The translations under genes and the position numbers were made by a program. Below the pieces are notes generated by a model that made no database searches, was not told where the DNA came from, and saw only the letters and a list, made by a program, of their open reading frames with translations. This document shows, piece by piece, positions 40,615 through 43,738 of a stretch of 60,051 nt of DNA. The stretch is from Halothiobacillus sp. (GTDB taxonomy: Bacteria > Pseudomonadota > Gammaproteobacteria > JAAZVP01), in contig JAAZVP010000008.1 of the NCBI GenBank assembly GCA_018623495.1, forward strand, positions 1 through 60,051, written 5' to 3'. Each line of letters opens with the position of its first letter. Within the stretch, counting starts at the first letter, position 1.

Positions 40615-40947
40615 ATGGACCAGACCGACCACATGCTCGTCCTGACCACCCTCCCCGACCGGGAGAGCGGTCTGCGCGTCGCCGGCCAGTTGCTCGAGGA
40701 GCGGCTGGTGGCCTGCGCCAGTGTCGGCGCCGAGATGACCTCGGTCTACCGCTGGCGCGGCGAGACCCACACCGACCCCGAGGTCCAGCTGACGCTCAAG
40801 ACCCGGCGCGACCGCTGGAACGAGCTGGAGAAACGCGTGCTCGAGCTGCACCCCTATGAAGAGCCCGAGCTGCTCGCCCTGCCGGTCACCGGCAACCGTA
40901 CCTACCTGAGGTGGATGGACGAATGCGTAGCTCAAACCCTGCCCTGA
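40615..40947 (+). CDS. cutA: Divalent cation tolerance protein CutA
   Basis: 110 residues. LEERLVACASVGAEMTSVYR is the CutA core (L...LAACV....SVY.W), followed by QLTLKTRRDRWNELEKRVLE and HPYEEPELLALPV. CutA is a small trimeric protein linked to copper tolerance; its mechanism is not settled. It has a GGAGGG ribosome site and its end overlaps the dsbD start by 25 bases. A cutA-dsbD pair near groESL is typical of gammaproteobacteria. Confidence 0.96.
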   Translation: MDQTDHMLVLTTLPDRESGLRVAGQLLEERLVACASVGAEMTSVYRWRGETHTDPEVQLTLKTRRDRWNELEKRVLELHPYEEPELLALPVTGNRTYLRWMDECVAQTLP

Positions 40948-43199
40948 CGCTGATCGCCCTGCTCGGCCTGCTGGTCGCGGGGCTCCCTGCCCACGCGCTC
41001 GAGGAGGGCGAACTCCTCGAGCCCGGCAAGGCCTTCCAGATGGAGGCGGAGGCGACCGCCCCGGACCGCGTCGAGGCGCATTTCGACGTCGCCGAGGGCT
41101 ACTACCTCTACCGCGACCGCATCGAGTTCAGCCTCGCCGGCGACGGCGCCCGGCTGGATGCCACCGAGCTGCCGCCGGGGCATACCAAGCAGGACGACCT
41201 GTTCGGCGAGGTCACCATCCTCGACGGCTCCTTCGACGCCGGCCTCGCGCTGGCCGGCGAGGACCTCGCGGGCCGCTCGGTCACCCTGCGCGCCAAGTAC
41301 CAGGGCTGCGCCGAGGCGGGCGTGTGCTACCCGCCCATCGAGCGCGAGATCGACCTGGCCCTGCCCGCCGGCGGCTCGGCCACCGCCGAGATCGCGGCCA
41401 TGGGCGAGGCCATGGATGCCGGCGGCGGCTTCCTCGAACCCGACCAGGCCTTCGCCCCGGAGGTCACCGCCGGCGCCGACGGCATCCACGTCCACTTCGA
41501 CATCGCCGACGGGCACTATCTCTACCGCGACAAGATCGAGCTCGGCCTGGCCGGCGACACCCCGGTCACCGCCGGCGAGGCCGACATCCCGGCAGGCAAG
41601 GAGAAGAACGACCCGTTCTTCGGCCTGATCCACATCTTCGAGCACTCGTTGGACCTCACCCTGCCGGTGGGCAACCCCAGCGGCAGCGACCAGCCGGTGA
41701 CCCTGGTGCTGGGCTACCAGGGCTGCTCCGAGGCCGGCCTGTGCTACCCGCCCGAGGAAAAGCGCTTCGACGTCACCGTGCCCGCCGGCGCCAGCACCGC
41801 GGCGGCCGCACCGGCCGAGGATGGCGCGCCGGCCGGAAGCGACCCGGCAAAGGCTGTCGATGGTGCGGCGGCGAACGACGATATGGTCTCCGAACAGGAC
41901 CGCATCGCCGCCACCCTCGCCGGCGGCAACTTCTGGCTGGTGGTGGCCACCTTCCTCGGTTTCGGCCTGCTGCTGGCCTTCACGCCCTGCGTCTTCCCCA
42001 TGATCCCCATCCTCTCGGGGATCATCGCCGGCCAGGGCGCGGGCATCACCACCCGCAAGGCCTTCACGCTCTCGCTGGTCTACGTGCTGGCGATGGCGGT
42101 GACCTACACCGTGGCAGGCGTGCTTGCCGGGCTGTTCGGCTCCAACATCCAGGCGGCCTTCCAGAACCCCTGGATCATCGCCAGTTTCGCCGCGATCTTC
42201 GTGGCCCTGTCGCTGTCGATGTTCGGCTTCTACGACCTGCAGCTGCCCCACGGCCTGCAGAGTCGCCTGACCGAGATCTCCAACAAGCAGGAAGGCGGCA
42301 GCCTGATCGGCGTGGCGATCATGGGCCTGCTCTCGGCGCTGATCGTCGGTCCCTGCGTGGCCCCGCCGCTGGCGGGCGCGCTGATCTACATCGGCCAGAC
42401 CGGCGATGCCGTCCTCGGCGGCTCGGCGCTGTTCGCCATGAGCCTGGGCATGGGTCTGCCGCTGATCGCCATCGGCACCTCGGCCGGCAAGTTCCTGCCC
42501 AAGGCCGGCGGCTGGATGGACGCGGTCAAGGCGGTGTTCGGCGTGCTCATGCTGGCGGTGGCGGTCTGGATGCTCTCGCGCATCCTGCCGGGCACCGTCA
42601 CCCTCGCCCTGTGGGCGGTGCTGGTCATCGTCTCGGCGGTCTACATGGGCGCGATGGAACGCATCCCCGAGGACGCCAGCGGCTGGCGGCGCCTGTGGAA
42701 GGGCCTGGGCGTGGTCCTGCTGGTCTACGGCGCACTGATGCTGATCGGCGTGGCCGCCGGCGGCAAGAACCCGATGAAGCCGCTCGCCGTGCTGGACGTC
42801 GCTGGCGGCGGCCAGGCCACCGAGCAGGCCCATCTCGACTTCGAGCGGGTGGCCGACGTCGACGCGCTGGAGGCCCGACTGGCACAGGCCGCCGAGGCCG
42901 GCCAGCCGGTGATGCTCGACTACTACGCCGACTGGTGCGTGTCCTGCAAGGAGATGGAGGAGTACACCTTCTCCGACCCCGGCGTGCAGGCCCTGCTCGA
43001 CGACGTGCTGCTGCTGCAGGCGGACGTCACCGCCAACTCGGCTGCCGACAAGGCGCTGCTCCAGCGCTTCGACCTCTTCGGCCCGCCGGCGATCCTGTTC
43101 TTCGACGCCGACGGCAACGAGCGCAAGAACTACCGCGTGGTGGGCTTCATGAAGGCCGAGGCCTTCCGCGAGCACGCCCGCAAGGCCCTGGAACTGTGA
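40923..43199 (+). CDS. dsbD: Thiol:disulfide interchange protein DsbD with duplicated N-terminal domain
   Basis: 758 residues, longer than the usual 560-620. After a signal (LTLIALLGLLVAGLPAHA) there are two tandem periplasmic alpha domains, about 27-145 and 155-290. Each has its own redox pair: YQGCAEAGVCYPP (Cys129, Cys135) and YQGCSEAGLCYPP (Cys268, Cys274). The membrane beta domain (about 325-610) carries its Cys pair in FTPCVFPMIP (356) and GPCVAPPLAG (478). The C-terminal thioredoxin-like gamma domain has WCVSCKEME (Cys672, Cys675). It moves electrons from cytosolic thioredoxin to periplasmic thiol proteins. ATG 40923 is chosen; a GTG at 40911 is also possible. Confidence 0.95.
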   Translation: MRSSNPALTLIALLGLLVAGLPAHALEEGELLEPGKAFQMEAEATAPDRVEAHFDVAEGYYLYRDRIEFSLAGDGARLDATELPPGHTKQDDLFGEVTILDGSFDAGLALAGEDLAGRSVTLRAKYQGCAEAGVCYPPIEREIDLALPAGGSATAEIAAMGEAMDAGGGFLEPDQAFAPEVTAGADGIHVHFDIADGHYLYRDKIELGLAGDTPVTAGEADIPAGKEKNDPFFGLIHIFEHSLDLTLPVGNPSGSDQPVTLVLGYQGCSEAGLCYPPEEKRFDVTVPAGASTAAAAPAEDGAPAGSDPAKAVDGAAANDDMVSEQDRIAATLAGGNFWLVVATFLGFGLLLAFTPCVFPMIPILSGIIAGQGAGITTRKAFTLSLVYVLAMAVTYTVAGVLAGLFGSNIQAAFQNPWIIASFAAIFVALSLSMFGFYDLQLPHGLQSRLTEISNKQEGGSLIGVAIMGLLSALIVGPCVAPPLAGALIYIGQTGDAVLGGSALFAMSLGMGLPLIAIGTSAGKFLPKAGGWMDAVKAVFGVLMLAVAVWMLSRILPGTVTLALWAVLVIVSAVYMGAMERIPEDASGWRRLWKGLGVVLLVYGALMLIGVAAGGKNPMKPLAVLDVAGGGQATEQAHLDFERVADVDALEARLAQAAEAGQPVMLDYYADWCVSCKEMEEYTFSDPGVQALLDDVLLLQADVTANSAADKALLQRFDLFGPPAILFFDADGNERKNYRVVGFMKAEAFREHARKALEL

Positions 43200-43738
43200 C
43201 CCGCCCGCTGCACATCCTGTGCGCGGCCGGCCTGGTGCTCGCACTGGCGGCCTGCGGCCCCGGCGACGAGCGCGAGGATCCTTTCGGCGAGACCGCCGAG
43301 GCACCGGCCAGCGACGCCGTGGGCCAGCCGCGCCCCGCTTTGACCCTCGACGACCTCGGTGGGCGCAGCCACCACCTCGACGAGTGGAACGGCCAGGTGG
43401 TGCTGGTCAACTTCTGGGCCACCTGGTGCCCGCCCTGCCAGGACGAGATGCCGCTGCTCGACCGCCTGCACGCCCGTTACGAGGACGAGGGCTTCGCGGT
43501 CGTGGGCATCGCCATCGACCGGCGCGACAGGGTCGAGCAATTCGTCGAGGCCCACGGCATCGGCTTCCCTGTCCTGCTGGGCGACGCCGAGGCCGCCCGC
43601 AGCTCGGCCGACTTCGGCAACGCCTTCGGCGCCCTGCCCTTTTCCGCGGTGATCGACCGCGAGGGCATCATCCGCTTCACCTGGATGGGGCAGCTGCAGG
43701 AGGCCGAGGCCGTCGCCGCCATCGAACCGCTTTTGTGA
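43196..43738 (+). CDS. TlpA/ResA-like thioredoxin-fold lipoprotein
   Basis: 180 residues from a GTG at 43196 overlapping the dsbD stop (GTGA). The signal ends in a lipobox, LVLALAACG, so the protein is probably lipid-anchored in the periplasm. VNFWATWCPPCQDEMPLLDR holds the CPPC redox motif, and FGALPFSAVIDREG has the cis-Pro. Such proteins reduce specific periplasmic disulfides, for example in cytochrome c maturation. DsbD, encoded just upstream and co-transcribed, is the likely electron source. Confidence 0.9.
   Translation: MTRPLHILCAAGLVLALAACGPGDEREDPFGETAEAPASDAVGQPRPALTLDDLGGRSHHLDEWNGQVVLVNFWATWCPPCQDEMPLLDRLHARYEDEGFAVVGIAIDRRDRVEQFVEAHGIGFPVLLGDAEAARSSADFGNAFGALPFSAVIDREGIIRFTWMGQLQEAEAVAAIEPLL

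Follow-up and report, generated by a model that had tools for sequence, protein, structure and literature searches.

A DsbD with two alpha domains in Halothiobacillus sp. belongs to a double-alpha type widespread in Gammaproteobacteria

Introduction

What does a bacterium gain from a DsbD that carries two N-terminal redox domains in place of one? DsbD is a main known route by which reducing power reaches the oxidising periplasm in many bacteria. The question is raised by a gene on contig JAAZVP010000008.1 of Halothiobacillus sp. (GenBank assembly GCA_018623495.1), of which positions 1 to 60,051 of the forward strand were analysed; this whole stretch of 60,051 nucleotides is called the window throughout. 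An earlier note, made from the sequence without database searches, described the gene as encoding two tandem alpha domains where standard DsbD has one, and suggested that two outlets could serve two clients, perhaps including the TlpA-like lipoprotein encoded next, or pass electrons in series.

Results

Domain layout of the window DsbD

The product of dsbD (40923..43199, + strand, as are all features given below) scores 740.1 bits against the NCBIfam DsbD model NF001419, for which the cut-off is 330. Every feature used here to assign a protein to DsbD is present: DsbD_N with a CxxxxxC pair, in this case in two copies, DsbD_TM with two cysteines, and a C-terminal thioredoxin-like domain with a CxxC motif. 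Cysteines are numbered from the ATG at 40923; a GTG at 40911 is an alternative start, and the Pfam residue numbers, which count from it, equal the ATG numbering plus 4. The protein begins with a likely signal peptide of 25 residues ending in AHA (40923..40997, read by eye). The first DsbD_N (alpha) domain, D1, follows at 41010..41357 (PF11412, E = 5.3e-26, 91.9 bits), with its active-site pair Cys129/Cys135 in the motif CAEAGVC (41307..41327). A linker predicted to be disordered (41358..41429) separates it from the second alpha domain, D2 (41430..41774; E = 1.7e-29, 103.2 bits), which has Cys268/Cys274 in CSEAGLC (41724..41744). Both matches exceed the curated PF11412 cut-off of 25 bits. The DsbD_TM membrane domain (PF02683, E = 1.3e-105; 41931..42587, residues 341–559 in Pfam's GTG numbering) contains Cys356 and Cys478, and C-terminal to it lies the thioredoxin-like gamma domain (42816..43181), which has the motif CVSC at 672/675, is recognised as a thioredoxin domain by Pfam and matches E. 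coli cDsbD (2fwe, E = 1.3e-36).

Two DsbD_N domains in one open frame, N-terminal to the membrane domain, define what we call the double-alpha architecture, and the window dsbD product is a DsbD with two genuine alpha domains. The earlier note had proposed a profile search as a check, and this search bears out the tandem domains; the complete CxxxxxC pairs stand at the cysteine positions that the note gave.

An AlphaFold2 model of the tandem alpha region, made with 101 aligned tandem regions, has a mean pLDDT of 91.2; D1 is above 90 in nearly all blocks, and D2 is likewise of high confidence. The alignment took 101 of the 105 double proteins described below, with L062, L152, L149 and L168 omitted as duplicates or near-duplicates. 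In the linker between the domains pLDDT is below 50 (model residues 125–139), which together with a pTM of 0.51 points to two well-formed domains without fixed mutual packing. A Foldseek search with the model returned DsbD N-terminal domains as all 18 of its best matches, and the solved structure nearest to D2 is that of Neisseria nDsbD (6dnv/6dps). Going by their cysteine motifs and the predicted folds, both alpha domains are apparently active.

Occurrence of the double-alpha architecture

Two DsbD_N domains in one frame were found in 28 of 82 Gammaproteobacteria genomes, evenly drawn with one per family code; 76 of the 82 have any DsbD_N match. Among 68 Pseudomonadota genomes of other classes, a set within a 90-genome phylum sample, none has two in one gene, and 23 have any match. 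The nearest relatives among the genomes compared (the best 80 of 461 confirmed), all from outside the window genome's own family and order, comprise 77 double and 3 single proteins, and the double ones among these best 80 include members of Thiocapsa, Thiorhodococcus, Marichromatium, Thiocystis, Thioalkalivibrio, Ca. Thiodiazotropha and Guyparkeria; Guyparkeria hydrothermalis and Marichromatium gracile are cultivable examples. Since the double form is common in Gammaproteobacteria, the window DsbD is an ordinary variant and no surprise: it is an ordinary member of a double-alpha type widespread in this class. Whether the outlets differ in their clients is a question that concerns that whole group, not the window gene in particular.

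The earlier note had treated the arrangement as unusual and had itself named beforehand what would speak against this, a survey of DsbD architectures finding it common, which is what we find. Its remark that standard DsbD has one alpha domain holds for the E. coli and Neisseria proteins but not for the double-alpha genomes and relatives counted above. A search of the open-access literature, including the accessible portions of PMC7347389, PMC5403849, PMC5524982, PMC3914529, PMC9675693 and PMC8900818, turned up no account of a DsbD in which two alpha domains are catalytic.

Subtypes of the two domains and their history

The CxxxxxC pair is intact in all 105 D1, all 105 D2 and all 48 single domains compared. 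The 105 double proteins are the 77 nearest relatives, 27 from the class sample and the window protein, with at least three counted twice because they occur in both samples (L038/L168, L109/L149 and L107/L152). Judged from sequence, the D1 and D2 positions have diverged into distinct subtypes in most of these proteins. The residue before QGC is Ser in 81 of 105 D1 domains and Tyr in 92 of 105 D2 domains. The position aligned with cap-loop Phe70 of E. coli DsbD, which according to the available text of an eLife paper shields the active site (PMC7347389), is Phe in 82/105 D1 and 25/105 D2. The contrast is weaker in the 28 evenly drawn proteins, with Ser before QGC in 13/28 D1, Tyr in 22/28 D2, and the cap Phe in 16/28 D1 vs. 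9/28 D2.

A FastTree domain tree places 97 of the 105 D1 domains within one clade. In a more careful tree of 88 domains, from which L143 was omitted for its aberrant cap loop, the main D1 clade consists of 28 D1 rows together with the single domain of locus L193 (L193_S; support 80/94), and the D1 label requires 9 changes; loci L001–L032 were not included in the trees. These changes and the composition of the D1 clade indicate that duplication, conversion or re-duplication probably took place more than once. In a tree of the membrane and gamma parts of 153 genes, the single and double forms must have interchanged at least 18 times; as many lineages also make do with one domain, the second alpha domain is dispensable. 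By profile score 39 of the 48 single-domain proteins are D2-like, making D2 the likely ancestral partner of gamma.

Two loci depart from the general pattern. The D1 and D2 domains of L113 (G001:C75) are sisters in the careful tree (100/87), likely through a recent re-duplication. L193 (G089:C9:90188-95229), a single-domain DsbD near the window clade, has a D1-like domain as its sole alpha domain (+18.1 bits), which suggests that D2 was lost there.

The first alpha domain of the window protein

The window's own D1 matches the D2 profile better than the D1 profile by 9.2 bits, the sole clear case among the 105 (L159_D1 scores −0.4 on the D1-vs-D2 scale), and its residue before QGC is Tyr, while its cap position holds Leu. 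FastTree supports a D2-type placement (0.985), and the careful tree likewise puts this domain among D2 rows, with support of only 88/79. The membrane and gamma part of the protein is sister to that of Guyparkeria (0.93), as is, expectedly, the window D2 in the careful tree. An approximately unbiased (AU) test that forced the window D1 to join the local D1-type domains rejected this grouping at p = 0.040, the group having been picked after seeing a tree; a wider test allowing the window D1 anywhere in the main D1 clade gave no rejection (p = 0.27). A replacement of the window D1 by a D2-type domain is possible on this evidence. We offer only as a tentative conjecture the broader scenario in which D1 and D2 are sub-functionalised outlets with different client ranges across Gammaproteobacteria, and the window lineage swapped a lost D1-type domain for a second D2-type one. 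If true, this would be a natural outlet swap, open to comparison with Guyparkeria, a sister that has the D1–D2 form.

Neighbouring genes and possible clients

Upstream of dsbD, a CutA-like gene (40615..40947; NF041095, 97.1 bits, under the cut-off of 120) overlaps the dsbD start. Downstream, a gene with a GTG start (43196..43738) shares 4 bases with the stop end of dsbD; it encodes a TlpA/ResA-like thioredoxin-fold lipoprotein with an LAAC lipobox read by eye, and scores 90.3 bits against the ResA model, under its cut-off of 170. The two overlaps suggest a single transcript. No scs-like genes were seen by eye among the dsbD neighbours in the window.

The window genome contains only one strong DsbD_TM protein (the second match scores 27.9 bits), one DsbC_N match and 10 TlpA-like matches, the downstream neighbour included (weakest E = 5e-4). 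As the sole strong DsbD_TM protein, the window DsbD probably serves the one DsbC and several TlpA-like proteins. No CcmG above the family cut-off was found in this genome, which is 99% complete, so cytochrome c maturation may go by another route here or be absent.

Partner counts were compared between the 28 double and the 48 single-only genomes of the class sample, with the 6 of 82 that lack a DsbD_N match set aside; none of the p values is corrected for relatedness. The median number of CcmG/TlpA-like matches per genome is 9 for double vs. 5 for single genomes (9 vs. 6 when restricted by size, p = 3e-5), and DsbC_N is present in 27/28 vs. 35/48 (p = 0.013). CcmG presence does not differ between the groups (22/28 vs. 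35/48, p = 0.78). These correlations with the double form may reflect lifestyle or genome size. A strict tie of the second domain to cytochrome c maturation was considered and rejected, with no difference in CcmG presence between the groups and none over the cut-off in the window genome.

Where there is room downstream in the class sample, a TlpA-like gene directly follows 21 of 27 double genes (26 of the 27 sampled doubles plus the window) and 14 of 45 single genes (Fisher p = 2e-4). Among nearest relatives with room downstream, it is next in 44 of 73 doubles and in all 3 singles. Once relatedness is taken into account, the supported branches provide only 4 independent comparisons, of which an average of 2.8 go the same way and 0.2 the opposite way (sign test, median p = 0.25). 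A link between the second domain and an adjacent TlpA gene was accordingly rejected, the association being lost on correction for relatedness. The connection to the adjacent lipoprotein raised in the earlier note is thus visible in the raw counts but not independently of shared descent; for the window DsbD itself it is suggestive, with gene neighbourhood as its one line of evidence.

Discussion

The reading we prefer, with a probability of roughly 0.7, is that this is an ordinary double-alpha DsbD in which one transporter feeds two parallel, partly specialised outlets. By homology to DsbD, electrons would pass from cytoplasmic thioredoxin to Cys356/478 of the membrane domain and on to the CVSC motif (672/675) of gamma. 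Gamma would then reduce one or the other of the two alpha domains, each on its own tether, at 129/135 or at 268/274. Direct reduction of both is the step that we infer, given that the linker is flexible, that the cysteines are conserved and that there are single proteins whose domain is D2-like or, in L193, D1-like. D1 and D2 would thus be parallel outlets to thioredoxin-fold clients, for example DsbC and TlpA-like proteins, and the two subtypes may prefer different clients. Two outlets for two clients is a plausible arrangement, and it fits the sequence differences between the subtypes.

Tandem duplication might instead merely raise outlet capacity or local concentration and leave the clients undivided. 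Frequent gain and loss, to judge by the 18 or more changes in the 153-gene tree, would agree with such redundancy, as would the sister domains of L113 and the fold and cysteines that D1 and D2 have in common. Redundancy by itself does not predict that the two should be long-separated subtypes in most double proteins, as seen in the single clade holding most D1 domains and in the profile differences, and we consider it rather unlikely. A relay is also conceivable, in which gamma reduces the membrane-proximal D2, D2 reduces the distal D1, and D1 reduces the clients. The order of the domains along the chain suits this series, as does the predominance of D2-like domains among single-domain DsbDs, but we know of no case of exchange between alpha domains, the disordered linker and the pTM of 0.51 predict no fixed contact between D1 and D2, and the lone D1-like domain of L193 presumably works directly with gamma. 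The exchange partners of nDsbD given in the accessible text of PMC7347389 and in complex structures are, moreover, thioredoxin-fold proteins. Transfer in series, the other route suggested in the earlier note, is made less likely by the flexible linker in particular, and overall we regard it as improbable.

Returning to two parallel outlets, if the second is real in about one third of the sampled gammaproteobacterial families, the one-outlet picture drawn from E. coli is not general. The double-alpha DsbD would also be a simple system in which to ask how one transporter splits electrons among its clients.

Comparison with known systems

Like the DsbD of E. coli and Neisseria (alpha-TM-gamma), the window protein has three kinds of domain with all the catalytic cysteines, and its domains match the nDsbD and cDsbD structures; those proteins have one alpha domain, whereas the window DsbD has two. 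ScsB, of the Scs system, is likewise a DsbD-family transporter, in which only one of two N-terminal folds is known to carry a catalytic pair; in the window DsbD both do. The N-terminal part of ScsB was reportedly described by Furlong in 2018 as a tandem immunoglobulin-fold domain. The CcdA/Etrx system and Caulobacter ScsB-TlpA-PprX resemble the window in combining an electron transporter with TlpA-like thioredoxins, a pairing indicated in the window by gene neighbourhood only. To our knowledge, two alpha domains are not known from the transporters of either system. According to the accessible parts of the papers on them, in pneumococcal Etrx1/Etrx2 with CcdA and in Caulobacter ScsB-TlpA-PprX alike, a membrane transporter feeds TlpA-like periplasmic or surface thioredoxins (PMC5403849, PMC3914529).
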